Assembly (NCBI GenBank): GCA_963681505.1 | Contig: OY811986.1 | Span: forward strand, 3,065,922-3,129,921 | Reading direction: 5' to 3' | DNA length: 64,000 bases | Origin: Eunapius fragilis | Lineage: Eukaryota > Porifera > Demospongiae > Spongillida > Spongillidae | Part shown: in pieces, positions 17,928-43,603 of the stretch | Layout: the number at the start of each line of letters is the position of its first letter | Numbering within the stretch: position 1 is the first letter of the stretch | The notes under the pieces: generated by a model | Database searches by the model: none | Told to the model about the DNA's origin: nothing | Seen by the model: only the letters and a program-made list of their open reading frames with translations | Made by a program: the position numbers and the translations under genes

Positions 17928-20016
17928 CTATCTACGCTGTGTCTTTCCCATCTTCCTTTTTCCAGAGTACAGATGCTTGGGTAGCAAAGTACCAATCTTT
18001 CTATCTGCTTCACCACCTTTGCCTTCCTGCACAAATTTGCGTTGGTCTAACTTCATCTTCTTTCTTGCCTTAACCACCTGCCCAGCATCTCTCAGTCCTG
18101 ACTTATCACGAGGCAATCGTACCACAGAATGTGACTTTGATCGTGATGCAACAGCTGACTGGCTTCTAGCCCTCTTCTTGCCAGCCAATGTTGACTTTAC
18201 TGACCCTATAGGAAAAAAAAAAACAGTAGTCAATACACTTGGGAGTACATGTAGGTGCATGTGTGCAAGTATGAGATCACACCCTGAATGCCTAAATGTG
18301 CAGACAATAGACACAGATCAATTATGGGGATAATACCTCTGCAAGCAGAGGCAGGCAAATACACAAGTGAACATCTTCGCAAATGCTTCATTTACCATCA
18401 GCCACAACTTCTTGTCCCTCGTCCATATCCTGCTCACTCTTATCCTTGCGCTGTGCACGACTCGCTCTAGCTGCAGTACGTGGCATTACTGGGTAATTGG
18501 TTGACTTCTTGTTCCAGCTCTTCATACGCAAGAGCTTCTTTTTTGCACGGATCTGCGCTGCTGTGCGACGTGTCTCTAGTGTTTCTTCATCCTCCACCTC
18601 CACATCATATTCACCAGCTGCTTCTCTGAGTTCCTCCTCCTTTTCCAGCTCTTCCAGCTTCTGCATTATATCAGGGTCGATAAAGTCTGCAATGTTCTTT
18701 CCTTCATATATTTCAGGGATTACATCATACTTCTGAGACTCGTCACTAAGTAAATATTTCTTCTTCAGGTCAAGGAAGTAGTCATCTCCCATCTCCAGTT
18801 CAACATCTCTCTCAGTTTTCTTTTTTGTGCTGGTGGTATCCATAGCAATATGGGCTCCAGTTTTGTGCAACTTTGCACCCGGAGGGATAAATGGAGGTCT
18901 TTCAACTCCATCTCTTGGTGTCGGCACTGCAACATGAAGTCTGTTTAAGATGTCTGGCATTTTCTTCCCCTTCATTTTTGTTTCCACCCTCTGAGACAGG
19001 AGCATGTCACAAGCACGGGTTTTCACATCTATTATACCTTCCTCTGTGATGGTACTCATGGGAAGAACCAATGCCCCATCGCCTTCCAGCTGACGAATCT
19101 GCTCCCTAACCTCCTCCTTAAGATCCTCGGGGCGAACAATGTCTATTTTATTCAGTGCAACAATCAGAGGTTTGTTGGTGAAAAGCGGCTTGATGCTATT
19201 AAAGAGGTGGACCTGCTCAGTGAGAGTATGCCCACACTGCTCAGATATGTCCATCACATACAGTATGGCAGCCCTAAGGTGAGCAAGGGCAGTGATTGCC
19301 TGCATTTCTATCGTGTTCCGTTCCTCCAAGGAGTGGTCAAGGATCCCTGGAGTGTCCACCACCTGCCAGCGAAGGTACTTGTAGTCCATATGGCCAACAA
19401 AGAGTGACTTTGTGGTGAACGCATAAGGCTGTACCTCCACGTCTGCCCTAGTGACCTTGTTGATGAAGCTGGACTTCCCAACATTCGGAAACCCACAGAT
19501 GAGGATGGTGCGTGTGTTAGGGTCAATTGACGGCAGACGTGCCAAGTGCTGGCGAACCTGCTCAAGGTACTGCAGGCTCTGGTTCTGACGTCTCATAATG
19601 GTGCACATCCTTCCAAGAGCTGCCCTCTTCAACTGCTTGCAGCGGTACAGGGAATCAGCAAACTTTATCAGACGGGCATAGTCCTTGGCAACGTTGTCAA
19701 TGAGGTTCTTGGCTGTGTTGACTTGGCCCAAGGCCAGCTTGTAGTGGTCTTTGTCATACAGTACATTCATGAGGTCAGCATAGAAGGGATGAATGTCATC
19801 CAACTTGGGAAACTCTGTGATAATCAATGCCAATTTGTCATGGTAGGTCTGCTGGGTGAACTTGATTTTGCGGACATAAAACTGACGAATGCGTGATATT
19901 TTGTACCCAGGGTGGACAACAGTGGGGGTTTTGCGTTGTGTCTTTGAGAGCACTATGTCGATAAAGTCCTTTGCAGAGGGGACAACTGCAATTTTTTTGA
20001 AATTATAGTGCGCCAT
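17928..20016 (-). CDS. GTPBP4: Nucleolar GTP-binding protein 1 (NOG1/GTPBP4)
   Basis: OBG-family GTPase needed for maturation of the 60S ribosomal subunit in nucleolus and nucleoplasm. Two exons (18396-20016 and 17928-18205) join in phase to 632 residues, close to the usual animal length. The start at 20016 is chosen because [20 protein letters not shown] is the conserved N terminus; an in-frame Met 14 codons upstream follows an AG and is probably 5' UTR. GTPase motifs: [13 protein letters not shown] (G1), TTK (G2), DTPGILD (G3), NKID (G4). The NOG1 helical N domain precedes them and an acidic/basic tail follows. The C terminus ([15 protein letters not shown]...[20 protein letters not shown]) is the typical nuclear/nucleolar tail in exon 2. 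Nothing is broken. Confidence 0.97.
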
Positions 20017-21952
20017 AACCCTGAATGAAAGCATAGACATTTCATAATTAATTGCCATGCAAGATACTATGATTTTCTTCTGTATTAATCAACCATGTAC
20101 TGTTTGCATTGTAAGTGGGGGAAATAGCAGTCAGAAAAAACAGAAGTCCTTCCACCCCCCTCCAAATATATATATATGCCCTGGCAAGTGTTAATTGCAT
20201 GTGATTTCAAGAATATTAAAAAGTGCGAGTGTGGTAACTAAATGATCATAAAACCAAATTGCATGATTAAATCATAAGGTATGCAAGCCAGCAGAATTCT
20301 ACTCAGTCCTCAAGGGCTATCGATTTGAGTAATACGAAGCATGGGCCAGACTTCCAGTGATGATTTGGAAATTGAGCCGTGCTTAACAGCAACTCTATGT
20401 GTGTGTAGGCATGATTAACCAGTTGTACTAGATGAGGGGGTCCACTACAACAATCGGCAAAGGTGAAATGAGTTTTGCTGTGAGTTTAAACAAGAGAGAA
20501 TGAAACAAGGAATGTTTTGTAAAAAAAGCATGGTTGTGGCAATAAAAAAAGGATAGGGATGTGGATGTACTGTAGTACAATTTACTCTATTCTTAAGCAT
20601 TGTAACTTGTCCAAAATGATTTTAACTACACAAGCATTGTCCTATGGTACGAAATGGAATCAAACATAATTTAGTGCACAATAAGTTTTGCACATTAAAT
20701 GTTCATGTTTATTGTAAATAAACCACTTATACGGTTATGTACTGGTCAGATTTGTGCAAAACAATCTGCATACTAACCAGTGATGAAAGATTTGGAAATG
20801 ATAACTATATCCCTACAGTGACTTGCTAAGCACTAATGATATAAAGATACTGTTATTAAATCGCATCAGGGGGCAACATTGCATTACTCATTGAAGTTAC
20901 AACAATCCCATCACCCTATTGTTTATCACTACTAATGTTGAACAAATCTGCATACAAGGAAAATGGGTTTAAAACAATCAGTAGTTACTACCTGAATAAA
21001 ATATTACTTCAAACTTTTTATTCAAATCAAAACCACTACACTGAATATCTGCGCAAAAAACCATTTATGGCACCAATATAATGCATTACTTAATGCCTAC
21101 GACAGCCCTATCAGCATTGTACACATCTGTACACATCAACCTCAATGTGAAAGCATCTACTCAAGTGCTTGGGTGTTGGGTTTTATCCCTGGTAATGATC
21201 AATAACCTATGACACAATGGTTTTACAGGCTATCACTTGGTTTTAACCAACATATTTACAACATCCATCCCTTGAGTACTAAAATGATAGATGAAGGAGA
21301 TCATGATAGTGGAAACTCATTAGTGGACTTACATCAAAATGCCATACAAGTGTGTCTAATTCTGTTCAGTATTTTTTTACAGGCAAAATTCACAGTGGGA
21401 AGACCAAATATGATAAACAAGGTGCCACTCTAATGTTCTATGAGATGGGCACATGGTTGGTGTTTACCCAGTGAACAATCAGAAAATATGCAACAACTTA
21501 CGAAGCCCACAACAATGAGCACTGCACATACACCCCCAACATGGCACAATGTTGGCAATGGTACTAGAAATGTACATTATGCTGAAGGAAGATTATACCC
21601 ACAGGAAATGGGGATGAACAGACCCATTATTATGTCAAAGCTACACTATCTGGGCATAGCAGAGTACTTCAATACACTTCCTGATTTTAATTCATACATA
21701 CTACATGATATAGAACCGCTATCTGTTAGCGTATTCATGAGAATGAACAGAATATGGATCACATCAAGCAAATGGTTGCAAATGAGTTAAGTTAGTCAGA
21801 AGCACCACGGATGAACTAGGTAACAGGGTCATGAAATAGACAACAGCCTAGTTTCACAGGTCTTCAAGCACCTCTTGCTTTGCCGTAAATCAAACGATGG
21901 CCCAATATCCAACCACTACAAACCTCCAGAGAGGGATGATAGCATCATAACG

Positions 21953-22481: not shown

Positions 22482-25400
22482 TTAACTAGGAGTTGAAATT
22501 GCAATAGACGGAGGAACAAGTACAATGGATGGAAGTTCGTCATGCTTTTCCGCCTCTGCGATCGCTTGTGCCGTATTTTGTTCCACTACAGGAGAGCTTG
22601 AAGTTTCTTGTAATCTTAGAGAAGCCACTGCTCTTATTTTTGCAATAGACACCGGGCGAATTCTACTGATGTCTCCAACAGTGCTGCGTCTCGGCGGGCG
22701 GTGATGTTTCGTAATAGCTTCAATTGAACTCGTAAGATGATCGTTGTACAGTTTCATGGCATCGGAATGAGTGTAGAGTGTGTTGTTAGGGTGCTGCAAT
22801 ATTCTACCCACAACACTTTCTTCTATGCTTTTCATCGCCTCTACCGTAGTGGATACCTGGCGGGCTAACCTCTTCTGCCTCTCTTGTATTTTGTCTAAGG
22901 TGCGAATATATTTCGGCGTGATAGGAACAGGCTCTGCACTAGAAAGGCCTTCCTGTATCGAATCCATCCGACTAGCCGCACTGAAAGGAGTTTCAATTTC
23001 AATTCGGTCCATACTTGCATTCCTGGTTTGTGCTATTTGGTCAAGGTATAATTTTCCGGCTTTTTTCCAACGTCGTCTTGCAGTCAATGATCCCTCAGTA
23101 GATGCCTGCTCATGCAATGATTCCTGCATTTCAATCACATTATCTGATTCAACTGAAGCCTTCTTATGTTTGGTCCTACACGAGCAGGGATGTACAATGT
23201 GATGTAAACAAATTATAATATTGTTCATACTCATATATTGGAATTACCTCTTCAGCCTTTTGCAGGGTAGCCAGACTGCCTCCAATGATGAGCCATGAAA
23301 AGCATTGCTGATCACAGCAGCTGATAGGTAGAACAGAGTGAAGCCAAGCAGTATCTGTCACAAGAGATACAATAATATGATGCCAACTGCAATGCTCCTT
23401 TCTCTTACAGTGACATGGAGATATGGGTTTGTATCATCCATATTAAATTGCCTTAAGACATACACTCCAGATGTAGAATAGCATTGAAGAGCTGTACTGT
23501 GCTCTGAGCAACCAACGTTATAGTCAGCGAGAAGTAGTTTGGCAGATGCAAACAGCCCATAATAATTTGGATTGATGTAGCAGATCCACCGATAGCTGCG
23601 CGTGAACACAAGAATAAACAATGCAATATGCACATTGTCTTACTATAGTGGCATGGTGTCTCTGGGTATGAAAAATCCACTAGCAAAACCAGCAACGCTT
23701 GATAGTACAGGTGAAAGCCGAACAGAATGATTTGGGAAGGAACATATTAGAAAAATGAGAAGGGCAATCCATGTTTGATTCAGTGCCATGTTCACAACCA
23801 GTATCTGCCCAAATACAGTCCAACTATATGCTTTTGACTTCACCAGCTTTATACGAGAAGTAGATGCATTTAAAATGATATGCAGTCAGCACACATGAAT
23901 GTGGTTTACCATCAAATAGAGGATTCCAGCACAAATGATCACAGGAATTATGCTCATGAATACTGCTTTAATAAATCCTTGAATAACAATATCCCATGGC
24001 CTGCCTATGCCATCTGCATGCTCATATTTATATACCTGGGCAAAAGAATGACTCAAAATTGCATCCATGTACGCACAAATGTAATACCTCCAAAGCTTTT
24101 TGGTAGTAAGCATTGAGAGCTGGAAACATGAACAATGCACTTGCAACAGAGTAAACACAAAAGCCAGATAGTGCAAGATATGGTAGTGTAGTTTGCCAGT
24201 AAGCAGTGCCTAAAGTAATAATAATAATATTGGTTAGTGAATCAAAGATTGCACTGTGCTTACCCAATAAAAATCCATAAGCAAGAAATAAGCACGGCAA
24301 ATACAACAGCTGCCATAATCCACCTTGCTTTGCATTCCTGGCCTCCAAGGTAGCCAAACGTGTAAGCAGGTTGGCGTCATCTTTGTAGTCTCTAATATTC
24401 CACAGAGAATAACACATAGCTATGTTTTGTAGTTGCCTTACTGTTCATGTGGAAAGTCTTCTTGTAGTTGCCTGCTTGCACCATCAGTTTGCTCCTTACT
24501 AAGCAACTGCAAAATACGACTCTGTTCACCTGAATGTTGGTAATAGTCAGTTATGATTTCTCGCACTACCGGATTCCCAAGAATGTCCATTATTAGATCT
24601 GTTGATGAAATTAGTACAAAGTGTTCACATCGCTTCAAAAGTAAGTAATAGAAATGCCAAACCAGCTGGATTGTGGTCCTCAACTTCTGGTATGATAAAA
24701 CCTTGTTCTAAACAGCGAGTCTTCAAAGCTGTTACGAACACCTCATAGGCCTTGTCAGGAAGGCCATGGTATGCAATCTTAACAATTTGTAGCATCATGT
24801 TAGAAACAAGTTTTGTACAAATTTACATCTACCTTGCCCTCTGTAAGAAGCACAAGCCTATGAAAAAGATGGAAAATCTCCAATCGTGGTTGGTGAATTG
24901 TGATAATGACAGTTCTGTTAGAGTCTGTTAATTTGTTGAGATGGGTTAGAAGTTCAAATGAGGATGAAGAATCCAAGCCCGAGGTTGGTTCATCTAAAAT
25001 AATAAGACTTGGCAGTTTTAGTAGCTGCATAGCCACTGTCAGTCGTCGTTTCTAAAAAAAGTTTCATTGTTATGATGATTCCTAAATTAGCCATGCCATG
25101 TTTAGTTACAAGGTTTTCTGATAAAGAAACAGCAACCATTAATTATGTCTCATACCTGTCACTTTTGTATTTCTACTACTGTACGAACCTCATGTATATG
25201 AAAAAATTAATAATTGTGATGTAGTATTAGAATGAACATATTAATTGCATTAAACCAGAATGTGATGAAGTGGTATTTGTATAGCAATTGAAATTTAGTT
25301 ATAGCTAGCAACATGATTAATGATAAGTCTGTTTATTGTCACATCCTATTAGTACCTACCAATTATATAATAATAATTATATATAATTATGGTTGTATCT

Positions 25401-28295
25401 AAAACTCATGACTATTATGCATGGTAACCCAATTTTTTTACCTGTCCACCACTTAGTCCAGGTCCCGTAACATTGCCAACAACTGTGTCAGCCACTGATT
25501 GCAGACCTGTCTGTTGAACACACTCATATAGGTATGTTAGAATGTGAACTCTTGTTACATACCACTGCCATGACCTGCTCCACACGTTCAAATTTTTGTT
25601 GACTGGTCAGTGATCTAGATAGTTTAATTTGAGCTGAAAGGATAAGGTTTTCTCTGACAGTCAGTTTCTCATAGTAGGGCAGAGCCAGCTGGAGTACATA
25701 ACCACTATGGGCAGCAAACCAGTGCTGCATATTCTCCAATGGTACACCATTTATGAATATTTCTCCCTATCCATATAAGGACACCTGTGTACATACACGT
25801 GAACATATATGTAAGGCTTCATACCTCCGTAGGTTTGCGACGCCCAGCCAACAAGTCAAGCAAGGTGGTTTTGCCACACCCTAAACAGTGGGGTGACATT
25901 TAGGACAAATATGCTACTTATTGTATCCTTTTCATTAGAGCACCTGTCTGTCCAGCACTTACCTGATGGTCCCATAATTCCCACTAGCTGTCCAGCCGTA
26001 AAATATGCTGAAACACCTTTAAGAATCTTCTTGTTTGTGCGTTTGAATGTTTTAAAACTGAACTGCCCATCAGTATTCTTGCGAGCTTTATTTCCTACTT
26101 GTTCATTACCTGGCTATTTAAATACAATGAAAATACCACTTAAAGAGTAAATTGAAGTATACTACTAGCCCACCATTCTATCCTCCACACCAGCATTGCA
26201 TTGATCAGGCATAGTCGTGGACACTGCAAGGGTCGTAAGGATTAGTGTGTTGACATTCAGAAAAGCAGCGTATGCATTATTTAGTCATGCACATACAAGT
26301 GAATTCTCCATTATCGAGGCCACTCAATACAACAGGGAGTGTAGTATCACTTTTTTCATCTTTTATCTGCCCAGGTTTCAGATTTATAGAATATGAGAGG
26401 TTCTTGCACGCAATGGACACTGGTTGAAGGCATTGAGGGAACTATGTGGGGACATTGCAGTAATGAATTTTATGTAGTAAATGGGGCATAAAAATTAGAC
26501 ATGTAGAAATGTCATGCAAGTTCATAAGTGTAAATTGACTGACCTCCTGTTGTTCATCAGCGTTCTGTTCAGTATTGGAAGAGAGAGCTTCTTGGTACCG
26601 TTGGTGCTTTTTCATTAATACCATAAGCCAGAAGGCAAATGTAGCTTTGAACACCAAACACACTACAGTGACACTAATCACAATACATATGAGGATAGCT
26701 TTAATGTATACAGGCCAAACATCTCCCCCTAGAATTGTGGTGAACTTTTCTGGACATTTACTGTTGCAGTGAGGGCTGTAGCAGCCGTCCCTGATTTCAA
26801 GTCCTTGGTCATCAAAGCGACTTGCATTCCACATGACCAATGCATCACTTATGGTCACGTTGCCAAACCCCATGGTTCTCCACACGTCTGGATCCATTGT
26901 GTGCCTATTGATTACTTATTATAAAACCTTATGAACATATCATTTGCACTTGACTTACCGAAATGAGCCAACATCTGTGTCTATTTCAATGGTCTGGGTT
27001 CCTAATACCCTTCCTTCTCCCCACAGTGTAGAGGTCACTAAATAAATGTGTTGAAAACACTCAGAAACGATGTAGCTGAATTTCCCAGCCCTGTTCACTA
27101 CAAAAGAGAGGGAAGTGTTCATTGCTCCTCCGTACTCTTCCACAACCTCCAAATAGGGTATGAAGCCAGAATTTTGGATTGCGTTTGGGGAAACTCCAGG
27201 TAGTGTTCTTATGGTGTCTGCCAGGAGGTACACGTCGTATAGGCTAATAATGGCGAGTGTTGGCACCTTTGCTGATGGATAGTACTCTGACTTAGTCAAC
27301 ATGCAATGCGCTGATATGCAGCAGGGAGATCCGTAGCTGAAATCATTGCAATTCGCAGCAATGTCACCTTGAACGGCGTTCAGGAAGTTCCCCTGAATGG
27401 GGGAGTCTTTATCAGCACGCAATTCATAGAACGCTTTGTTGATATTGTCGTGGAAATTTAGAAACCAGGCCGAGTCAATGATCACGTTAAGGGTGGAATC
27501 GTTTGTATAATTGTGGAGGTAATTTAACAGCCATTTCGCCTGGTTAATCGCTCCTACTCCACCTGCACTAGAGCCAGCTAGTACTACGTCTGTTGCATTA
27601 GCGAGCACCAGCTGCTTTATGGCTTCGCGAAATATCACCGAACCGCGGTAGATAAACTGTAGTCCGCTTGAATTAGCAAGAAAGCATTCCTTGAAAAACT
27701 TATCACCGATTAGCTTGCAAGACTCATAGGTCTTATTGCTATAGCACGCGTCGTACATGGATGATGGAATATCACAATTTGATGGAATCGCTCCGTCACC
27801 AATCCACAAGTCGCTGCTGCAATACGGCAATATAACACGGTTGTAAGAGCAAAATACAGGATTTAGACTGCAATTTCTATCCAGCACTCCTAAACCTGTG
27901 ATCTGAAAACCCGATGAGAAGTACGAAGTATTGTAAAAGGTCAGCATAGAAGTTACTAACGGAGATACAACGGTATGTCCTGCTACCCCGCTGGATTTTG
28001 CTTTCGTTGCAGTAAATTTCCCGGCACCGTCTTGATACAAAGGATTTGTTCGAACACTATCACGAAAGTACCTATTGGTACAAGAAGTATTCGAGTAGCA
28101 GGTACCTCCACTTTCTAAGAATATTAGCCACTTGTTTATGTTCGGAATTACATCGGCAAAGAATCCTGCAGGCGTGAAATCGTTGCAAACAGCAGCTCTG
28201 TTGAGGATTGTGTTCCACTCCATATCACATTTCGTATTTACAATGAGTACAGCCAAACTTTGTAGTGCTATAATCCCCGTCAGTTGTCGTCGCAT
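22482..28295 (-). CDS. Notum/pectin-acetylesterase - ABCG half-transporter fusion, copy A
   Basis: Eighteen exons (28295-26959, 26904-26544, 26441-26297, 26223-26174, 26113-25963, 25880-25825, 25766-25563, 25510-25442, 25051-24833, 24777-24663, 24598-24500, 24419-24264, 24209-24088, 24035-23910, 23846-23644, 23595-23409, 23354-23248, 23175-22482) sum to 1466 residues with every phase matching. Only the 24500 border has alternatives. Order: signal peptide (about 1-23); alpha/beta hydrolase of the Notum/PAE family with LESGGTCYS, nucleophile elbow GSSAGG (Ser243), Asp in SLYDVYLL, His in CFQHIYL and Cys-rich end PHCNSKCP; one membrane helix (about 500-530); ABC domain with Walker A GPSGCGKT, LSGGQ, LIILDEPTSGLDS and H-loop TIHQPR; six ABCG-type helices with WICYINPNYYG; a 230-residue cytosolic tail. 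The predicted topology puts the esterase outside and the ATPase inside. ABCG half transporters move lipids or sterols as dimers; Notum-type enzymes cleave acyl esters. Coupling of the two is inference. Confidence 0.9.
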
Positions 28296-29153
28296 TTCGT
28301 TTAGTAATAAAATACTGAGGCCCTTGTCAAAGGGAATCATTTATATAAAAATATTATGATTATTAATTTAACCTGTGTACAATATTATATATAAATACCA
28401 TGGGCTATACGGTTTAAAGCATTCCGATTTATCCCACGATATAATATAGGCGAGGCATAATTTATCTAGCGTATCCTTGCGAGGTGTGGTAATGAGAGTT
28501 GACATTCCTCCATTATGCAGCTTTGGAAACTAAACACTTCTCTTTATATGGCAATATCGATTTGCAACATCTATAACGAGCTCAGGCCAACTGAGATCAG
28601 TTGTGACAGCATATGTGTTGTGGCTCTCTCTGTATCTATGCACACTGTTGATCACATTTATTCTTCCCCATGCAGAATTCTAATCAGTCACATTACAGGC
28701 ATCCATTGGTTTACACTTTCAGCTTAGTGTGATAAAGCCTTCAGAAATAGACATCGTCATATGAAGTTGTCTTTGGTGCTGTCATTACCCAAGGCTATTG
28801 CCTTCTAAGATCAAAATTAGAATTTTCCATAAGTCTAGGTTCGTATTGAACCCCAGCATTGGATTCGTATCCACTTCATTCTGGTTTCTTTTCACAGCAA
28901 GTGGCTCGTTGGAGAATAATGTTTATAATACTGGGTCATTGTTGACCACCTCTTTCCAAATATGCCTCAGGGACCCATGTATTATCATTGTATGTCATGA
29001 CAAGGACTGGTGTGGTTCCAACCAACACAGGCCTTGGTGTCTGTGGTCCCAGTCAGATTAATTTGTCTTAAATCTAGGCCACAGGCTCATATTATCCGGT
29101 TGAGCTGGCCTCTTGACCTCTATCGCCCGGGTCAAGCCTATATGTTTTTTTGT
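28296..29153. promoter_or_regulatory. Upstream region of esterase-ABCG copy A
   Basis: No gene recognised. Around 28480-28510 the sequence GTGGTAATGAGAGTTGACAT recurs with small changes upstream of copy B (about 39268-39292) and at about 40178-40202, which makes it a candidate shared upstream element. No further promoter motif is assigned. Confidence 0.35.
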
Positions 29154-30640
29154 TCAGTTATTGAAGAAACCACTAATGAAACTCATGTTTTTAAAGTGGT
29201 AAATAGTCATCTGGACTTGGGTAGTGTAAATGCTTGGATGCATAACTAGTTCATACTCCATACAGACTGAGGCCTGCGGATATACCTTGGCATCCCATCC
29301 ATCATTCAATAGCTGGGAATATGTCCAAGTACTCAAATGCATGTGGTTGAATATTCTTCTGGCCAATCACATGTGTATAGTAGTCACATGATCCACATAA
29401 TGGAGGTGGGTGTAGCCATTCTTGGATGTTGTGGAGCACAAGCTGCTATGTACCTAGTGGTGCCATATGGTGTCAAGGCTCAGCAGGGAATGTTACTGTG
29501 TATCATACATGTCCATTCCCTGAATGTCAGTAACGCCAGCAAATATGCCATTGTGCTGTGAATGAGATCCTCCAATGTATCTTAGTTGCTTGCCAGTTAT
29601 TTGTTCATCCAATTTCTAAGACCATCAAAAACCTCAATATGGTTACTAGTGCTATGCACATAACTTAATTACTGTACTTCAAGTTCTATCTTCTATTTGC
29701 AATGTTGGAAAAATCTATCCATACTCCTAATGAGTTGTAATTAGACAAGACATGCCAATGGCTATAATATTGAACAGATTTGTTTATCAACTTATATTGG
29801 TATCTGCAAGGAAGAGCACCAAAATATTACTTGTGGCCTCTACTTTTGTTAGTGGGATGTCGTGTGCCTTTTAGGCAATAGAAGACATATTTCGGCGCCA
29901 GCTGTCCTACTCCCAGCCAACATGAAATTTACTAAGAACGTTCGCTAGTAAATTATTGGAACCTAGCTAGCTACTAAGTAGGTACCATTGCGGCGTTATG
30001 AAGTCATTAAAAAACGTAATTCGCGTCTAGCGGAAAGCCGAGTCTGGTAATTTATCTTACAATATAAGGCTCCTGCTGGGTACAACAATACAATGCATCC
30101 ATTGTATATCCATTAATAAGGTTGCAAGCATTTGTTGAAGAGCATTAAGATGTTAAAAACTGCCAGCATTATAATTATAAACGCTCGCCTTAAAAACCTA
30201 CTAAATTGTGATAGAAAGAAAAACTGATCTGAGTAAGTTGGTTTTCATTTTACCCAAACTATGGTCTCGTGCCCAGACCCTAAAATTCGCGGATGGATGA
30301 CATTACATCACCGCTACACGAGACTTTATCGTGGAAATGTTGGAAATGCCACTCCACAAAGAAACATGCAGTTTTAGCCTTGATGTGCTCTTATTAGGGT
30401 TGAAAGGGGGGGGGGGGGGAGATGATAAGTAGCAAGCACGTGCTCAGCAATAATTGCAGTGTATTCATATTACATTCCGGTGGTCAACATTTGTCAGTCG
30501 TAGCGGTGATGTAATCCACCTCAGCTATGACGTATTTAGGGTCTAGGCACGAGACTACCCGAATGATTACCATTTTACAACAGTTCCTTGGGCAAATATA
30601 AGTCTGACCATTGATGACATGTCAGATAAATATTAAATAT
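29154..30640 (-). pseudogene. Decayed duplicate of the secreted glycosidase-like gene
   Basis: Corresponds to parts of the intact gene at 40328-43603. Recognisable pieces: the exon pair around 29200-29560 (SQHNGIFAGVTDIQGMDM, then YIAACAP, then the PLSTWTYSQLLNDGWDAK region), the DEP-containing exon near 29800-29925, and intron sequence near 30150-30220 and 30575-30620. An inserted base after the CAP codons shifts the frame, and large parts (first four exons and last exon) are missing. A MITE (30263-30558) interrupts it. Between the pieces the sequence is diverged. Confidence 0.85.
30263..30558. mobile_element. About 296-bp MITE inside the pseudogene
   Basis: Inverted ends GGTCTCGTGCCCAGACCCTA and its complement, with inner pairing TACATCACCGCTAC / GTAGCGGTGATGTA. 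It carries a 13-base G run (about 30407). It splits sequence that is continuous in the intact paralogue near 42290-42300, so it inserted after the duplication. Confidence 0.8.
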
Positions 30641-31724
30641 AGACACATGTGATTCAAGGCAAAAAATATATTAAAATGTAGATACATGCATATCTAATAT
30701 CCCATAAAAGGCTCAAGATTATGTGGCAATACATATCCCATTGCCAAACAAACGGCAATCCTATTTTACTCAAGACAAGTTTGTTTGTACACAACATTGT
30801 CAACTTGATCTCTAATCGATATATGAACATATGTAGTTCCATATGTACTACCATGAGCAGGACCCCTGACGTTTTAGCATTGATTTCACAGCAACTGCCA
30901 CATGTGTCTTACATGATGAGGATGCTGAACTTTAGACACCCATGTTAACTTCCATGTTCTCATTTGTTCACTGGGTGCGCATGCACGTGTGCAAGGAGTT
31001 CAGAACAACACGCTTAGAACACTTTGCCACTTTAAATCATTTACCATTTGCTAGGACACACTTCATTCACTTGGTCATACAACATACAGCTGAGAGGGCT
31101 ATAACTATATCTTGTTCAAATAATGCGATGCCAATTACAACAGTTGCATCAGCAAGTAGAGGGGTTCAGCTCTGCTCTTTCATTCACAGCTGAGATGTAA
31201 TCACCTTCCTCTTTATTACCAATAACATTTGTTGTCTTCATTTGTGGTTGTTTCATTAAAGCCATCTTCATCCTCCAAGACAATTTCTTGATCAACTTGA
31301 TTTTTAATTTCTCATAAATATTGCAATACATGTCACAATAGGCAAACACTATCAGCCTAAGATCTAGCATACAGCTTTGGTGTTGGTGTTGTATGTGCAA
31401 ATCAGCAAATTGGTCCAATTCTTAGTAAATGTCATTCGATCTAGAAAAATGGGCTTCAAATAAGCTACATGTGCATACTTTAGCACAAAAACCCTAAGGC
31501 AGTTGTTCTGAGAAAAGAGTGAAGTGGTGGCATCAATTAAGCATGCAGCCTAGAGAATGCAGGGGACTTCAATATCTGTAAAGGTAGTGGTTTTACGTGT
31601 TTGTACTTAAATTAGCTACTGCATGCTTAGATAATAGAGCACTCAATTCTACAATGGCTCTAATGCATGATCTAGGAACAACAAATAGCAGCTGCGAAAT
31701 GTAATTAAAAAATTGGCCTTGAAA
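30641..31724. other. Intergenic, possible decayed coding fragment
   Basis: About 30645-30725 resembles 45.41-45.50 kb (the NOC3L intron), a further scrap of the duplication. A minus-strand stretch at about 31190-31320 looks coding-like in two frames (for example DQEIVLEDEDGFNETTTNED) but cannot be named. No complete gene. Confidence 0.35.
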
Positions 31725-31886
31725 GGGAGCATTCACAAATTACGTCATGCTATTTCCATTATGGACCCCCCCCCCCCCCCTCGTCACACATTATCCCATA
31801 CAAATGTATGTTTAATGTATACATCGTCACACTGGCTGATACCCCCCCTCCCCCCCTTCAGCGTGACGTAATTTGTGAATGCTCCC
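31725..31886. mobile_element. 162-bp MITE with GGGAGCATTCACAAATTACG ends
   Basis: Inverted ends of about 23 bp (GGGAGCATTCACAAATTACG then TCA) at 31725 and 31886. The centre has two C-rich runs (about 31766-31782 and 31844-31857). Ends of this GGGAGCATTCAnAAATTACG type are seen in non-autonomous DNA transposons of many invertebrates, to my knowledge. Confidence 0.8.
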
Positions 31887-32109
31887 AAAAGTGGTCTGGA
31901 AGAGGAAGACAAAGATAAGGATGAGGTGTTACCTATATTTAAAATGCAAAATGCAATTCATAACACGATTTGAATATATTTGGGACAGAGTTCGACCTGG
32001 GTTAAAATTTTATCATTGTAAAAATTTTGCTTACGTATATCTTCGCAATCTTACAATGCTTTCGGATTGTTTTAGTTATTTTCACTGCCAGGAATACAAA
32101 GTCCACCAA

Positions 32110-32124
32110 CCCCCCCCCCCCCCC
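32110..32124 (+). repeat. Poly-C tract
   Basis: A run of about 15 C on the plus strand (poly-G on minus). Confidence 0.85.
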
Positions 32125-32349
32125 TCCATACTGTTAGAATTCCACCATAGATATTAGAGGTAATCTATGATTCCACTTACGCGCTTACGAGAATTCGATC
32201 CTGACAGGTCGGGGAACTTTTTACTCACTACAGCGAAAGTACCTAGAGCACCAAAGTCAGTTTGCTTGGAGAAAAATGGTGAGTGATCGCGTAAGGGAGA
32301 TTTGAAAGGAAAGAGTTGTACGCGTACGATTCCAAAGATATGGGACATT

Positions 32350-32540
32350 GACTAGCAAAATCACCCTTCTGGGGAGTTTTTCAAGTTTTCAAAAAAAAAT
32401 TCTATGTACTCCAAAGAGCCTTTATCAAATAGTCCTTACGCACCCTAAATTGGACTATCCATCTTAAAGTTATTAGGCACTGAATTTATAATTTTCATAC
32501 ATTTCAACGCGAGCGTTACTTTTAACATTAGTAACCCCAG
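32350..32540. repeat. Truncated copy of the 15.1-kb MITE family
   Basis: Contains AAATCACCCTTCTGG, TCAAGTTTTCAAA, GTCCTTACGCACCCTAAAT and AACGCGAGCGTTACTTTT, which occur in inverted order within 15140-15355. Only one terminal repeat is present, so it is a partial copy. Confidence 0.65.
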
Positions 32541-32698
32541 AAGTATAATTTTGCATGCTGCAGACTGTTCCAATAACTTTTAATTGACCAGTGTGTATTT
32601 AAATACAGTATATTCACTTGTCAACACGTTTTCAGAATCATACATGCACATTGGTATCATAAGAATAATAAAAATAATAAAAAAACAGAAGAAACAAG

Positions 32699-32846
32699 TA
32701 AAGAAAAACATTCTCTAATGAGAAAGCTGGTGGAATGGAGGTTTTTGTCTCATTTTATTTTCCCCAAACACCTTGTTTCCTTCTCACATTTGCCTTCAAT
32801 TCTTATCTCACCAACTTTCTCATTGAGGAATGCTTTTCTTTACTGG
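32699..32846. repeat. About 148-bp fold-back element
   Basis: The left end AGTAAAGAAAAACATTCTCT (then AATGAGAAAGCTGGTG) is the near complement of the right end ending CTTTTCTTTACT. It lies just downstream of the copy B stop codon. Confidence 0.7.
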
Positions 32847-32851
32847 TCCAA

Positions 32852-35800
32852 TTAGTTAGTGGTGTGTTCCGTGATAGGAGTTGCGTTTTCATTTGTAATT
32901 ACAACGCATGGTAAGTCGTTTTGATTTTCCGTCTCTGCAACTATTTGTGGCATACCATTTTGTTCCACTGCAGAGGGGTTTGACGTTTCTTGTAATCTTA
33001 GAGAAGCCACTGCTCTTATTTTTGCAATAGGCACCGGGCGAATTCTACTGATGTCTCCAACAGTGCTGCGTCTCGGCGGGCGGTGATGTTTCGTAATAGC
33101 GTCAATTGAACTCGTAAGGTCATCGTTGTACAGTTTCATGGCATCGTAATGGGTGTAACGTGTGGAAGGGTGCTGCAATATTCTACCCACAACACTTTCT
33201 TCGATGCTTTTCATCGCCTCTACCGTAGTGGATACCTGGCGGGCTAACCTCTTCTGCCTCTCTTGTATTTTGTCTAAGGTGCGAATATATTTCGGCGTGA
33301 TAGGAACAGGCTCTGCACTAGAAAGGCCTTCCTGTATCGAATCCATCCGACTAGCCGCACTTAAAGGAGTTTCGATTTCAAGTCGGTTCATACTTGCATT
33401 CCTGGTTTGTGCTATTTGGTCAAGGCATATTTCTCCGGCTTTTTTCCAACGTCGTCTTGCAGTCAATGATCCCTCAGCAGATGCCTGCTCATGCAAAGAT
33501 TCCTGCATTTCAATCATTTCTGATTCAACTGAAGTCTTCTTACGTTTGTCCCTACACGAGCAGAGATGTGCAATGTGATGTGAACAAATCCTTTAAAAAA
33601 TAATATAGTATTGTTTGTACTCATACATGCAATTACCTTTTCAGCCTTTTGCAGGGTGGCCAGAATGCCTCCAATGTTGAGCCGTGAAATGCATTGCTGA
33701 TCACAGCAGCTGATAGGTAGAACAGAGTGAAGCCAAGCAGTATCTGTCACAAGAGATACAATAATATGATGCCAACTGCAATGCTCCTTTCTCTTACAGT
33801 GACATGGAGATATGGGTTTGTATCATCCATATTAAATTGCCTTAAGACATACACTCCAGATGTAGAATAGCATTGAAGAGCTGTACTGTGCTCTGAGCAA
33901 CCAACGTTATAGTCAGCGAGAAGTAGTTTGGCAGATGCAAACAGCCCATAATAATTTGGATTGATGTAGCAGATCCACCGATAGCTGCGCGTGAACACAA
34001 GAATAAACAATGCAATATGCACATTGTCTTACTATAGTGGCATGGTGTCTCTGGGTATGAAAAATCCACTAGCAAAACCAGCAACGCTTGATAGTACAGG
34101 TGAAAGCCGAACAGAATGATTTGGGAAGGAACATATTAGAAAAATGAGAAGGGCAATCCATGTTTGATTCAGTGCCATGTTCACAACCAGTATCTGCCCA
34201 AATACAGTCCAACTATATGCTTTTGACTTCACCAGCTTTATACGAGAAGTAGATGCATTTAAAATGATATGCAGTCAGCACACATGAATGTGGTTTACCA
34301 TCAAATAGAGGATTCCAGCACAAATGATCACAGGAATTATGCTCATGAATACTGCTTTAATAAATCCTTGAATAACAATATCCCATGGCCTGCCTATGCC
34401 ATCTGCATGCTCATATTTATATACCTGGGCAAAAGAATGACTCAAAATTGCATCCATGTACGCACAAATGTAATACCTCCAAAGCTTTTTGGTAGTAAGC
34501 ATTGAGAGCTGGAAACATGAACAATGCACTTGCAACAGAGTAAACACAAAAGCCAGATAGTGCAAGATATGGTAGTGTAGTTTGCCAGTAAGCAGTGCCT
34601 AAAGTAATAATAATAATATTGGTTAGTGAATCAAAGATTGCACTGTGCTTACCCAATAAAAATCCATAAGCAAGAAATAAGCACGGCAAATACAACAGCT
34701 GCCATAATCCACCTTGCTTTGCATTCCTGGCCTCCAAGGTAGCCAAACGTGTAAGCAGGTTGGCGTCATCTTTGTAGTCTCTAATATTCCACAGAGAATA
34801 ACACATAGCTATGTTTTGTAGTTGCCTTACTGTTCATGTGGAAAGTCTTCTTGTAGTTGCCTGCTTGCACCATCAGTTTGCTCCTTACTAAGCAACTGCA
34901 AAATACGACTCTGTTCACCTGAATGTTGGTAATAGTCAGTTATGATTTCTCGCACTACCGGATTCCCAAGAATGTCCATTATTAGATCTGTTGATGAAAT
35001 TAGTACAAAGTGTTCACATCGCTTCAAAAGTAAGTAATAGAAATGCCAAACCAGCTGGATTGTGGTCCTCAACTTCTGGTATGATAAAACCTTGTTCTAA
35101 ACAGCGAGTCTTCAAAGCTGTTACGAACACCTCATAGGCCTTGTCAGGAAGGCCATGGTATGCAATCTTAACAATTTGTAGCATCATGTTAGAAACAAGT
35201 TTTGTACAAATTTACATCTACCTTGCCCTCTGTAAGAAGCACAAGCCTATGAAAAAGATGGAAAATCTCCAATCGTGGTTGGTGAATTGTGATAATGACA
35301 GTTCTGTTAGAGTCTGCTAATTTGTTGAGATGGGTTAGAAGTTCAAATGAAGAAGTAGAATCCAAGCCCGAGGTTGGTTCATCTAATATAATAAGACTTG
35401 GCAGTTTTAATAGCTGCATAGCCACTGTCAGTCGTCGTTTCTAAAAATAAAATGTTTTTTTGTCATAATGAATTATTATGTCTGTTGGTTGTATGGTACT
35501 AGAGTTGTATGTCTTTGATCCTTTACCTTTTAGAGGTTATTGTGCAATCATTAGGCATGATTTTACAACCATCTCGTGTCCACAAAAGAATGGAATGCTT
35601 TTAAACACTATAACTCAGGATTGACATAAGTTGCAGTAGTTAGCCACATACTAATAACCCAATTATGGGAAGCGGTTAAATAAGTATCATAACCCTCATA
35701 AATCGAAAATGCATAGCTCTCTATTATCAAAATTATTTTGAGATAGTTGATTTTAATAACTAACGCAGTTCTGGATATGCAGTGGAACAGCACTGATTTT

Positions 35801-38800
35801 GAGTTACGAAGTTCAACAGTGAGTTATCACAATTTGCTTTAACGTTATTCCGTTATGGATGACCAATATTAATAACCATCAAAATTTAAAATTATTTCAT
35901 TTTAAAATGAAGTAAAAAATACCATTAAATTTGGTATTAGATTATGTCATGGCGAGTTATTAATCTCAAATTTAATATAAATTGGTGCTTAGGGATAGGA
36001 AGCCATGGACTCATTTAAAATCCTGCCCTCATAACATCAGGCAAAACAAAGTCAGCTGTTCCATGTGAGCTGTATAGTCGGCTAAACCTGCATTTGGTGA
36101 GGACAAATGCAACAGCAATCGTCTCCAGGTGAATCCCTTCTTAATGTTTAACAGCTAGTTATATATCTAAAACCTCATGACTATGCATGGTAACCCAATT
36201 TTTACCTGTCCACCACTTAGTCCAGGTCCCGTAACATTGCCAACAACTGTGTCTGCCACTGATTGCAGACCTGTCTGTTGGACACACCCATATAGGTTTG
36301 TTAGAATGTGAACTCCTCGTTACATACCACTGCTATGACCTGCTCCACACGTTCAAATTTTTGTTGACTGGTCAGTGATCTAGATAGTTTAATTTGAGCT
36401 GAAAGGATAAGGTTTTCTCTGACAGTCAGTTTCTCATAGTAGGGCAGAGCCAGCTGGAGTACATAACCACTATGGGCAGCAAACCAGTGCTGCATATTCT
36501 CCAATGGTACACCATTTATGAATACCTCTCCCTATCCAAATAAGGACACCTGTGTACATACATGTGAACATATATGTAAGGCTTCATACCTCCGTAGGTT
36601 TGCGACGCCCAGCCAACAAGTCAAGCAAGGTGGTTTTGCCACACCCTACACATTGGGGCGACATTTAGGTAAAGACAAATTTGCTATTTATGTATCCTGT
36701 TCATTAGAACTCCATCTGTACAGCACTTACCTGATGGTCCCATAATTCCCACTAGCTGTCCAGCCGTAAAATATGCTGAAACACCTTTTAGAATCTTCTT
36801 GTTTGTGCGTTTGAATGCTTTGAAACAAAACTGTCCATCAGTAGTCTTACCAGCACTATCTTCCACTTCTTCATTACCTGGCTATAAACAACGAACATCC
36901 AGTTAAAATATCACTTAATAAATAATGAAGTACATTAGCCCACCATTCTGTGCTCAACAGCTGCATTACTTTGGCCAGGTAGAGTCATGGACACTGTAAG
37001 GGCCATGCAAATTAGTGCATAAATTGGAAAAGTATTGTTACGATTGAAACTTTGCTCATGCACATACAAGTGAATTCTCTTTCATCAAGGCCATTCAATA
37101 CGACAGGGTGTGTAACATCATTTTTTTCATCCTTTATCCGCTCAGGTATCAAATTTACAGAATATGAGAGGTTCCTGCACGCAATGGACACTGGTTGAAG
37201 GCATTGAGGGAACTGTGTGGGGACAGTGCATTCATGAACTTAATGTAGTAAATGGGGCATAAAAATTAGACATGTGTAAAGGTCATGCATGTTCATGCAT
37301 GTAATCACAGCCATTGACTTACCTCATGTGGTTCATCAGCATTTTGTTCAGTATCATTATCAGTAGAGAGAGCTTCTTGGTACTGTTGGTGCCTTTTCAT
37401 TAATACCATATACCAGACGGCAAATGTTGCTTTGAACACCAAACACACTACAGTGACACTAATCACAATACATATGAGGATAGCTTTAATGTATACAGGC
37501 CAAACATCTCCCCCTAGAATTGTGGTGAACTTTTCTGGACATTTACTGTTGCAGTGAGGGCTGTAGCAGCCGTCCCTGATTTCAAGTCCTTGGTCATCAA
37601 AGCGACTTGCATTCCACATGACCAATGCATCACTTATGGTCACGTTGCCAAACCCCATGGTTCTCCACACGTCTGGATCCATTGTGTGCCTATTGATTAC
37701 TTATTATAAAACCTTATGAACATATCATTTGCACTTGACTTACCGAAATGAGCCAACATCTGTGTCTATTTCAATGGTCTGGGTTCCTAATACCCTTCCT
37801 TCTCCCCACAGTGTAGAGGTCACTAAATAAATGTGTTGAAAACACTCAGAAACGATGTAGCTGAATTTCCCAGCCCTGTTCACTACAAAAGAGAGGGAAG
37901 TGTTCATTGCTCCTCCGTACTCTTCCACAACCTCCAAATAGGGTATGAAGCCAGAATTTTGGATTGCGTTTGGGGAAACTCCAGGTAGTGTTCTTATGGT
38001 GTCTGCCAGGAGGTACACGTCGTATAGGCTAATAATGGCGAGTGTTGGCACCTTTGCTGATGGATAGTACTCTGACTTAGTCAACATGCAATGCGCTGAT
38101 ATGCAGCAGGGAGATCCGTAGCTGAAATCATTGCAATTCGCAGCAATGTCACCTTGAACGGCGTTCAGGAAGTTCCCCTGAATGGGGGAGTCTTTATCAG
38201 CACGCAATTCATAGAACGCTTTGTTGATATTGTCGTGGAAATTTAGAAACCAGGCCGAGTCAATGATCACGTTAAGGGTGGAATCGTTTGTATAATTGTG
38301 GAGGTAATTTAACAGCCATTTCGCCTGGTTAATCGCTCCTACTCCACCTGCACTAGAGCCAGCTAGTACTACGTCTGTTGCATTAGCGAGCACCAGCTGC
38401 TTTATGGCTTCGCGAAATATCACCGAACCGCGGTAGATAAACTGTAGTCCGCTTGAATTAGCAAGAAAGCATTCCTTGAAAAACTTATCACCGATTAGCT
38501 TGCAAGACTCATAGGTCTTATTGCTATAGCACGCGTCGTACATGGATGATGGAATATCACAATTTGATGGAATCGCTCCGTCACCAATCCACAAGTCGCT
38601 GCTGCAATACGGCAATATAACACGGTTGTAAGAGCAAAATACAGGATTTAGACTGCAATTTCTATCCAGCACTCCTAAACCTGTGATCTGAAAACCCGAT
38701 GAGAAGTACGAAGTATTGTAAAAGGTCAGCATAGAAGTTACTAACGGAGATACAACGGTATGTCCTGCTACCCCGCTGGATTTTGCTTTCGTTGCAGTAA

Positions 38801-39080
38801 ATTTCCCGGCACCGTCTTGATACAAAGGATTTGTTCGAACACTATCACGAAAGTACCTATTGGTACAAGAAGTATTCGAGTAGCAGGTACCTCCACTTTC
38901 TAAGAATATTAGCCACTTGTTTATGTTCGGACTTACTTCGGCAAAGAATCCTGCAGGCGTGAAATCGTTGCAAACAGCAGCTCTGTTGAGGATTGTGTTC
39001 CACTCCATATCACATTTCGTATTTCCAATGAGAACAGCTGAGCTCAGTAGTGCTATTATCCTCGTCAGTTGTCGCTGCAT
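32852..39080 (-). CDS. Notum/pectin-acetylesterase - ABCG half-transporter fusion, copy B
   Basis: Same 18-exon structure as copy A (39080-37744, 37689-37323, 37212-37068, 36993-36944, 36881-36731, 36645-36590, 36531-36328, 36274-36206, 35440-35222, 35166-35052, 34987-34889, 34808-34653, 34598-34477, 34424-34299, 34235-34033, 33984-33798, 33743-33637, 33551-32852), giving 1470 residues with all phases kept. The hydrolase and transmembrane domains appear identical to copy A over long stretches. Differences concentrate in the signal peptide, the linker between membrane anchor and ATPase, the start of the ABC domain, and the cytosolic tail (ends EHTTN instead of STPS). All catalytic and ATPase motifs are intact. 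The intron between exons 8 and 9 is about twice as long as in A and unrelated in sequence. Both genes look functional. Confidence 0.9.
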
Positions 39081-40327: not shown

Positions 40328-43300
40328 TCATAGTTTCAAGTTATTTTCTACAACAGCACGAACATTAATTGTATTAGCTAACACAAACAGTCTTGTTATT
40401 AAGTCAGCTGATACCACAACATTTTGAAAAATGACATTTTGTATCTTAATTGGGCCTTTTCTGTGGTCATGTAGTGCACTGGATATTATGAATGAATTCG
40501 ATATGTTCAGGATTACTCCATTCTGCACCTCAAAGATGTCAACAATCTCACCAAAGTCCAGAGGAATCGTAACATTCACTTGTGAAATTGTGTGGGTATC
40601 AATATTCCAGTGAAGATTAACTCCAATGGCACACTCTTCATCATTGTAGCCACCATCATTTTTTAAACCGATGATAGGTACAATTATGGCATCGTGTGAT
40701 CGAATAGCTTGCACTATGGAGTTAGCCTCCCACTGCTCCCCATCACTGCTGCTAATCATATCTGTGCAGTCACCTTCGCGTAGATACTCTCGAACTGCAA
40801 CAATATCTTTATTAAATTTACCAATTTCTGCCCATGTATCTGGGTAGTACTGCACTTCACTTATCTAAGTGTTGAGAACAAGGAAACACGTTTTAAAAGC
40901 AGTTAGCTTACTCTGTATATTAATGCACTAATGGTATCACTAGGGTAAATGCAATTGCGCCACACATGGAAGGGACATGAAAAGGAACTGCTCACAACTA
41001 GAGAAAGAGTTGATTATATATTATATATACCTCACTTTGGAAGTACATTATTCCTTTAGCACAAGCTGCCACTACAGACATGGCCTGGAGGCGAGCTTCT
41101 GCAGCATCTGGTCCACGGTGAGAAATAATCAGACTTCCCACCTGCATGTGGGTAGTATAAATGGTTGGATGCATAACTAGTTCATACTCCATACAGACTG
41201 AGGCCTGCGGATATACCTTGGCATCCCATCCATCATTCAATAGCTGGGAATATGTCCAAGTACTCAAAGGCATGTGGTTATTTCTGGTCAATCGCATGTA
41301 GTCATATGATCCACGTAATGGAGGTGGGTGGAGCCATTCTTGAATGTGTGGAGCACAAGCTGCTATGTACCTAGTGGAGCATATGGTGTCAAGGCACAGC
41401 AGGGGAATGTTATTGTGCATCATACATGTCCATTCCCTGAATGTCAGCAACGCCAGCAAATATGCCATTGTGCCGCGAACGAGAACCTCCAATGTATGTT
41501 AGTAATGAACTCTCTGCTTGCCAATTGTTTGCTGTACTGTTCATCAGACTTCTAAGGCCATCATCAACCTCAATAGGGTAAGTTTATGCATTACTGATAC
41601 ACATAACTTAGACACTATAATTATTCCACTTTTAATGTTATTACAATGATGAAAACCCTTCAGTACCATACATTGCATACGGCTAATGCTAATGAATCGT
41701 AATTAGAGAACACATACCAATATTGAACAGATTTGTTCCATCAACTTACATTTGCATCAGGTTCATCGGCAAGGAAGAGTGCCAAAATATTACTTGTGTT
41801 CTCTACTTTTGCTAGTGGGATGTCTGTGTCTGTTAGGCAATAGAAGCCATATTTCGGTGCCAGCTGTCCAGCTATAGTGCTTCCTGGTACAGTGCTTCCA
41901 CACGGACCAGCTGCTCCTTCTCCAAAGAACAGTGTGTCGATACCATGACTGACATGAAACTGAGAAAGTAATGGTTGATAGTGTACATACAAAGGATATA
42001 ATTATTTCTTACAAAATGCAATCAAATTGTAATGCTAGGTATCTACATAAATTTGTGGCATACATATCTACAATACAAGGTATTTACATATATTGGGTAG
42101 CATCCCTTTTACACCCATTATTACGTGTTTGATCATTTATTGCTGACTATGCCAATATATATATTTGCTTTTCAACAGCAATATGATAGTAAAAACTGCC
42201 ATTATTATAATCATAATCGCTCAAAGACCTAGTAAGACCTTTGAAACCTAATGGAATATACCAAATTGTGATACAAAAAAAAACTGGTACCATTCTACCC
42301 AAATGATCCACAGCTATCACACTACCACTAATAGGTGCTCCACTACCAGTACCATAGCTACCCACTACCAGAGCAATAGGTACCCCACTACCAGTGCATT
42401 TGTTATCCCACTACCACTAATAGGTACCCCAGTACCAGTGCCATAGCTATCCCACTACCAGAGCAATAGGTACCCCACTACCAGTGTCACCATTACGTTA
42501 ACAACAGTTGCCTGGGCAAAAGCAAAAAACACACGAGTTTGACCAATGATGACAAAGGCAGCATGCATGTGGCATGAATGCTAACTACAACTTTGCATGG
42601 GCTGTTTATTCATTTACAACAACCTCCATTGCATGCATTAAAAAGTACCTCAAAGTTTGAATCATTGATGGTGGGGAAAGGACACTCTGAAGATTTTGGC
42701 CAAGATTCAATAGGAAAGTGGGCTTTGGGTATCCTGCCACCTGCCACACTTTCAGCAGCATCATTCTCCACATACTGCAGCACCACAGTGTACAGGGAAC
42801 CTGGTGTCAGCAGGGTAGACAGAGGAACAGTGATAAGTGTAGTGGTTTGAGGAGGAAGGGACAGGCTCAGGTTATTCTGAATATCCCGCGTCACATCGAC
42901 ACCATTCACAATAACCTGAATGAAACGTAGTAGTACAGTAAATGCAATAATGAACTATGATTACTCACGGTTTCTATAGTTCTGAAAGTATTACTAGTAT
43001 ATCCATTGTGCACGTGGATTAGCAGAACCGAGTAGTTTGCTGTTGTTGCCACGTACGTTATATTGCAGTAATTAACATCCACAGGGAAGGATCCATTTAT
43101 CGCAACTAATCCCGTTGCAGAGTGCAGTTCAAACGTCGCTGAGGTAATCGTATCAAAAAGAGACTGCCTGCATGCAAATGCATTAAAAGATAAAGCGAAG
43201 GGACAAAATATTTACATATTACCTTGTATGGAAGGATATCCATACATCTGCTCCAGCTGTGAGAACAGGGGGATATATGTGCATCCAGTCAACGTACCAA

Positions 43301-43603
43301 TCATCAGGGTTCTCTCCTTTTGGAAATGTAATATGTTTGCCATTGAGGAAGGCATCGCCAGGTATTCCGTTCGCTGCTGAGAACGCCACTAAATGAAAGC
43401 GCCCACCATTGACAGGATCTGGAAGATGAGCTTCTTCGTACCACGTATACGGGTAGAAGTAATCCTTCCTGCATGCATGTATAGTACGTACGTGCTGGCA
43501 TTGTGTGCATGCACGTGTCCGTAACTCCTTACCTATAGCTGGCGTGGATAGAACTACCTTCAACCGCTGCAATAATTGTTAGCAAGAATAAAAAAGCTAG
43601 CAT
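40328..43603 (-). CDS. Secreted TIM-barrel glycosidase-like protein
   Basis: Nine exons (43533-43603, 43223-43468, 42969-43167, 42649-42915, 41750-41959, 41426-41568, 41217-41370, 41031-41141, 40328-40864) sum to 645 residues with consistent phases. It starts with a clear signal peptide (MLAFLFLLTIIAAVEG), then a beta-rich region with many N-glycosylation sequons (about 25-260). A hydrolase-like region follows with GIDTLFFGEG, LFLADEPD (a DEP typical of acid/base segments in (beta/alpha)8 glycosidases), GMDMYIAACAPHIQEW, NHMPLSTWTYSQ and GIMYFQSE, then a C-terminal beta domain. The 55-nt intron at 41371-41425 must be removed to read through GMDMYIAAC. The glycoside hydrolase family is not identified. 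Its first exon starts 152 bp after the NOC3L stop, on the same strand. Confidence 0.75.
42290..42490. repeat. Short minisatellite in intron 4 of the glycosidase-like gene
   Basis: Imperfect repeats of CCACTACCAGTGCCATAGCT and AATAGGTACCCCACTACCAG, about 30-60 bp in period. The equivalent part of the pseudogene lacks it. Confidence 0.75.

Follow-up and report, generated by a model that had tools for sequence, protein, structure and literature searches.

The question raised by this locus is whether a hydrolase of the PAE/Notum family and an ABCG half transporter are encoded as one polypeptide and, if so, what an enzyme joined to an exporter would do. The window, i.e., the whole stretch of 64,000 nucleotides from Eunapius fragilis that was analysed, carries two related genes in tandem on its minus strand, and in the predicted gene models of both, 18 exons are spliced into a single open frame. 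The parts of these models are as follows (all on the minus strand).

Copy A, whole gene: 28295-22482, minus; ATG at 28295, 4431 nt including the stop codon, 1476 aa
Copy A, exon 1: 26959..28295, minus; residues 1-446, signal-peptide-like start and nearly the whole PAE/Notum hydrolase
Copy A, intron 1: 26905..26958, minus; 54 nt, GT-AG, with an in-frame TAA at its opening
Copy A, exon 2: 26544..26904, minus; end of the hydrolase, then the membrane anchor, then the start of the linker
Copy A, hydrolase end DGCYSPHCNSKCP: about 26789-26751, minus; residues 485-497, within exon 2
Copy A, membrane anchor: about 26705-26649, minus; hydropathy peak, residues 513-531
Copy A, exons 3-9: 24833..26441, minus; linker and ABC ATPase with Walker A, LSGGQ, Walker B and H-loop
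Copy A, exons 10-17: 23248..24777, minus; ABCG-type membrane domain
Copy A, exon 18: 22482..23175, minus; tail of about 230 residues, stop codon at 22484-22482
Copy B, whole gene: 39080-32852, minus; 18 exons, 1480 aa
Copy B, exon 1: 37744..39080, minus; signal-peptide-like start and hydrolase
Copy B, exon 2: 37323..37689, minus; end of the hydrolase, membrane anchor, linker
Copy B, exons 3-9: 35222..37212, minus; linker and ABC ATPase, including the 765-nt intron 8
Copy B, exons 10-17: 33637..35166, minus; membrane domain
Copy B, exon 18: 32852..33551, minus; tail and stop codon

All of the introns of copies A and B (34/34) are of the GT-AG type, and 32/34 measure 48-110 nt, the exception being intron 8 with 390 nt in copy A and 765 nt in copy B. 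When copy A is spliced, the start, end, strand and exon number given by the initial annotation all prove correct, its junctions 26959/26904 and 26544/26441 are exact, and the intact frames it had claimed for both copies are confirmed by translations of 1476 aa (A) and 1480 aa (B) across introns that are exclusively GT-AG.

Other features of the window lie on either side of the pair or next to it. The minus-strand ORFs 18388-20088 and 17928-18317 encode the nucleolar GTPase NOG1 (GTPBP4), the second looking by eye like its C-terminal exon. With positions 18391-20046 as query, the nearest solved chain is 6lss_4 with 825 bits, which we take to be human NOG1, followed by three chains with 575-657 bits, presumably fungal. 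These scores are consistent with an animal, or a near relative of animals, as the source. An ORF at 54979-55704 (minus) contains DUF4517 (PF15006, E 5.7e-30), and densely packed minisatellites (repeat units of 24-84 bp) at 11698-12417 overlap with open frames of repetitive protein. Four minus-strand ORFs (40328-40864, 41741-42001, 42610-42954, and 43219-43578) look by eye like pieces of a single extracellular protein; none of these four between 40328 and 43578 has a Pfam match at E 0.01.

The predicted protein is composed of a short hydrophobic start, the PAE/Notum hydrolase, a hydrophobic helix, a linker, the ABC ATPase, the ABCG-type membrane domain and a tail, in this order. On spliced copy A, PF03283 (PAE/Notum) is matched with an E-value of 3.4e-28 (99.2 bits versus a cut-off of 26.6; the best of three stretches comprises residues 210-445), PF00005 (ABC ATPase) with 5.3e-30 (residues 662-815) and PF01061 (ABCG-type membrane domain) with 2.3e-14 (residues 991-1162). 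Each of these scores exceeds its curated cut-off and is far beyond chance, and all three matches fall in a single spliced protein. Splicing and Pfam thus bear out the proposal of the initial annotation that one frame joins a hydrolase of the PAE/Notum family, through a membrane anchor, to an ABCG half transporter. In copy B, the hydrolase ORF and the anchor ORF were scanned with Pfam; the former matches PF03283 with an E-value of 7.8e-31, the latter gave nothing under E 0.05, and the remaining domains of copy B rest on pairwise alignment with copy A. The exon 18 tail of copy A has no family match at E 0.05, and NCBIfam gave no match for exon 1 or for the exon 2 piece.

Motif searches place the hydrolase motif GSSAGG of copy A at 241, with Ser243 as the putative nucleophile, and the ATPase motifs GPSGCGKT at 679, LSGGQ at 787, LIILDEP at 807 and TIHQP at 842. 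Hydropathy analysis of copy A finds the anchor and 5/6 helices of the transporter. The one missed, the fifth, does not reach the threshold used, yet falls inside the ABCG1 alignment. The signal-peptide-like start was judged by eye and by hydropathy, and the same stretch of copy B is below the hydropathy threshold. The predicted ectodomain of copy A (residues 24-506) holds 11 of the 18 N-glycosylation sequons as well as 18 cysteines, which is as expected if this part were extracellular. Structure prediction for exon 1, intron 1 and exon 2 (4 sequences) failed, with a mean pLDDT of 33.8 and blocks near the anchor helix at 68-83.

As to the kind of hydrolase, Ser243 (GSSAGG) aligns with the nucleophile motif of Notum, Asp354 is aligned with an Asp in 4/4 bacterial rows, and His416 is aligned with the His of L002 and L008 (2/4 rows; L003 and L004 are gapped there). 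With Notum (chains 4uyz and 4uyu), which is a palmitoleoyl-protein carboxylesterase, the predicted protein shares the hydrolase family (7e-16), the GSSAGG nucleophile motif, the PYCSSD.W block and the C-terminal D.C..PHCN..CP. It differs from Notum in having two regions (query 77-133 and query 168-211) that are each longer by about 40 residues, and in adding a membrane anchor and a transporter. According to the available part of a published account, the oxyanion hole of Notum is formed by the amides of Gly126-Gly127, Gly127-Trp128 and Ser232-Ala233, and Trp128 lies beside the palmitoleate pocket (PMC8172013). In the predicted protein the oxyanion strand reads ESGGTC instead of the EGGWYC of Notum, Trp128 being opposite Gly64, so that a Notum-like palmitoleate pocket is unsupported. 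The identity with Notum suggested initially is therefore unsupported as a statement of function; “Notum/pectin acetylesterase” is best taken as a family label only.

The bacterial PAEs also lack the oxyanion Trp of Notum. L002, L004 and L008 match the predicted hydrolase with E-values of 3.6e-17, 9e-13 and 2.7e-12 in a search of seven proteins only. The bacterial PAEs looked at (five loci: L002, L003, L004, L008, and L009) are stand-alone proteins, unlike the predicted fusion. By eye, L002 (2580-3959), L004 (1183-2637) and L008 (1390-2523) have a Trp-containing stretch and a Cys near the C-terminus. In the main text of a paper on plant PAEs (PMC5465549), a term search finds neither “ABC” nor “transporter”.

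The transporter half seems to be of the ABCG type. When anchor, ATPase, membrane domain and tail together were used as query, the best match among the best 60 of 573 was a pleiotropic efflux pump (1.5e-55), ABCG1 followed with 5.9e-49, chains of ABCG2 and ABCG5/8 were matched as well, and chains of ABCB were matched via the ATPase. Up to an E-value of 1, the membrane domain alone retrieved no chains other than those of ABCG1, with 1.4e-4 over most of its length. In common with the ABCG half transporters ABCG1, ABCG2 and ABCG5/8, the predicted protein has the ATPase ahead of the membrane domain in one chain, the four ATPase motifs, the ABC2_membrane family and a membrane domain that aligns with that of ABCG1. 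Yeast Adp1 and plant ABCG24/28 possess a signal peptide, an ectodomain and one helix ahead of the ATPase and thereby seven helices; their ectodomains are Cys-rich or EGF-like rather than hydrolases. Their layout would resemble that of the predicted fusion, with different ectodomains. In contrast, the ABCG proteins covered in the available part of a 2026 survey are reported to have a cytoplasmic N-terminus with no membrane association there (PMC13257379), whereas the ATPase of the predicted protein comes after a hydrolase and an additional helix. On the basis of domain content, the protein may be classed as an ABCG half transporter bearing a hydrolase ectodomain.

Whether hydrolase and transporter belong to one protein is judged mainly from the junction of exons 1 and 2. 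Notum chain 4uyz matches the predicted protein in four colinear segments, with 7e-16 over the whole chain and segment i-Evalues of 9.6e-7, 0.012, 0.12 and 430, of which the first alone is significant by itself. In the fourth segment, DGCYSPHCNSKCP (residues 485-497, exon 2) is aligned to DSCPWPHCNPSCP of Notum. The C-terminal Cys motif of Notum, D.C..PHCN..CP, is thus present in exon 2, in a segment that is non-significant alone (i-Evalue 430), and the hydrophobic stretch 502-545 comes shortly after it. When the ectodomain part of exon 2 (447-506) is aligned locally with the Cys piece of Notum, the score is 54, a value reached by 0/20000 shuffles (best 48) against a target that was picked post hoc, after the match of DGCYSPHCNSKCP had been noticed. 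Because of that choice and of the i-Evalue of 430, the fourth segment counts by its order and motif. A profile built from three bacterial PAEs (L002, L004, and L008, with L003 left out) ends before exon 2 and brings no gain (84.1 bits, equalled by 266/500 shuffles), and a search of the solved structures with only the C-terminal 165 residues of the ectodomain retrieves no Notum chain up to E 10. Taken together, the hydrolase seems to continue from exon 1 into exon 2, and the best internal evidence for a fusion would be that the exon encoding the anchor opens with the end of the hydrolase. The TAA at the opening of intron 1 is in frame in both copies. Because the 54-nt intron opens with this codon, splicing alone would supply the last piece of the enzyme, and retention of the intron would yield a soluble enzyme devoid of the C-terminal Cys piece.

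How far the second copy supports this view depends on where the two genes differ. Two conversion-like tracts on the minus strand are 100% identical between them.

Tract 1: 26644..28146 (copy A) = 37429-38931 (copy B), minus; 1503 bp, from about residue 50 of the hydrolase across intron 1 to a point far into exon 2, most of which is included
Tract 2: 23302..24927 (copy A) = 33691-35316 (copy B), minus; 1626 bp, starting within exon 9 and stopping within exon 17, every intervening intron included

Both tracts have sharp edges. Elsewhere, the difference in 150-column windows of the A/B alignment ranges from 0.7 to 51%. Around and upstream of the start codon, 37-45% of the aligned columns are mismatched (two alignment windows), against 43% in intron 8 and 33% of aligned sites in intron 3; in exons 6-8 the mismatch is 0 to 1.5%, and for the signal-peptide region the synonymous distance is 0.44 over 23 codons only. 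The two identical blocks resemble what recent gene conversion would leave in tandem genes that had duplicated earlier, or else an effect of the assembly. Because the identity includes the introns, copy B is not an independent witness within tracts 1 and 2, and it was rejected as independent support for the first junction and the greater part of the hydrolase. Copy B counts as independent evidence over the first ~50 codons, between the last part of exon 2 and a point within exon 9, and in exon 18 together with the last part of exon 17. The “two intact copies” of the initial annotation hold insofar as both frames are open, but they are weaker evidence than this wording implies since tracts 1 and 2 are not independently conserved.

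In the parts that have not been homogenised, the introns have changed in both length and sequence but retain their splice sites, and gap columns in exons sum to multiples of three, namely 6 in exon 2 and 18 in exon 18. Values of dN/dS between A and B, given without a significance test, range from 0.21 to 0.76 by region outside the identical blocks, with 0.49 for residues 541-681 and 0.21 for exons 6-9. This comparison of gaps and dN/dS covers the diverged parts, excluding most of the hydrolase and most of the membrane domain, and it suggests that linker, ATPase and tail may be under protein-level constraint in both copies. Upstream of each gene lies one member of a repeat pair (29208-29586 and 41139-41503; 95% and 92% over two pieces). 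Its spacing of 11.9 kb is out of register with that of the gene duplication (10.4-10.8 kb), and the pair is therefore probably a dispersed repeat.

Relatives of the hydrolase were searched for in several collections. Plasmids gave no match to exon 1, no relative was confirmed among viral contigs (2 and 48 pattern matches in 2/8 scans), and genome contigs stood at 2/16 pattern matches. PF03283 is found in 59/290 genomes of the phylum of G001, the same phylum as that of the bacterial PAE-family proteins L002, L004 and L008. ORFs were listed for 5/35 relative loci (L002-L036), i.e., L002, L003, L004, L008 and L009, and a motif filter on the relative loci caught seven loci that represent four distinct proteins. 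The literature search returned, among the matches listed, no description of a fusion between a PAE/Notum hydrolase and an ABCG protein. As far as searched, this combination of domains is new, and it may already stand unremarked in public annotation.

The spliced frame, the domains and their order, the positions of Ser, Asp and His, the ATPase motifs and the end of the hydrolase within the anchor exon can be read directly from the DNA. From these data, the likeliest product is an ABCG half transporter that works as a dimer and bears an extracellular carboxylesterase next to the export path. Cleavage of the signal peptide, topology, dimerisation and a coupling of export to deacylation are the further steps that we infer. 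The start would serve as a signal peptide and be cleaved off; the hydrolase would reside outside and the ATPase in the cytosol, with a single membrane-crossing helix between them. If the half transporters pair as ABCG proteins do, the dimer would place two esterase domains over the outer mouth of a single export path. ATP hydrolysis might then drive the export of an amphipathic or lipid-like ester, which would be deacylated (or deacetylated) while emerging; alternatively, an acylated partner at the membrane could be processed there. As a whole, the best explanation seems to be that of tandem genes with one polypeptide each, in which an exported ester is deacylated at the outer mouth or an acylated partner is processed, and we hold it with somewhat less than even confidence.

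The main rival also takes the fusion to be real and supposes that a tethered ectoenzyme acts on extracellular glycans or acylated ligands independently of transport, the ABCG part having a substrate of its own. Conservation of the catalytic residues by alignment, the extracellular nature of the ligand of Notum (in the available part of PMC8172013) and the differences in linker and tail between the copies are all compatible with it, and it must be regarded as quite possible without being probable; it leaves unexplained why the anchor runs straight into an exporter with all four ATPase motifs searched for. A different role for the same ectodomain, which would regulate the transporter or mediate its dimerisation without being an enzyme, could be argued from the changed oxyanion strand (ESGGTC versus EGGWYC of Notum). 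But Ser243, Asp354 and His416 are kept and aligned with bacterial PAEs, which are themselves devoid of that Trp, and a loss of catalysis is quite improbable.

Two further explanations concern the transcripts rather than the ectodomain. If there were two neighbouring genes, a secreted hydrolase would end at the TAA of intron 1, which comes directly after exon 1, and an ABCG half transporter would start in exon 2 or 4. In-frame Met codons do exist in exon 2, before and after the anchor, and there are two in exon 4, with none in exon 3 of either copy; as those of exon 4 lie upstream of the Pfam ATPase match at 662, a separate internal start of the transporter in that exon is possible. Copy A also has possible polyadenylation words inside the gene (ATTAAA at 26705 in exon 2, AATAAA at 26092 in exon 5, and further ones), and the 580 bp scanned past its stop codon contain none; the sole AATAAA of copy B, at 32759, is situated just past the stop. 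Against two genes, the parts are just 54 nt apart and the enzyme would lose the C-terminal Cys motif matched at exon 2, which makes this arrangement unlikely. One gene might instead toggle by alternative splicing between a soluble enzyme, with intron 1 retained, and a tethered exporter form, as the shortness of that intron (54 nt) and the in-frame stop at its opening, in both copies, would allow. Such a soluble form would also be devoid of the Cys motif, the identity of intron 1 between the copies is explained by tract 1, and we consider this switch highly improbable.

If export and deacylation are indeed coupled in these tandem genes, they might represent a new class of export-coupled ectoenzymes, in which an ABCG exporter brings its own carboxylesterase to deacylate its cargo outside the cell, and in which gene conversion homogenises catalytic and membrane modules between tandem copies while linker and tail diverge. 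This proposal is tentative, and we think it rather doubtful in its full extent. A pump and a carboxylesterase in one chain would be a direct hint that the substrate of the pump is an ester. Should the targets of the enzyme be acylated signals, the export of lipids would be tied to the deacylation of ligands in an animal lineage, by a hydrolase of the family shared with the Wnt inactivator Notum.
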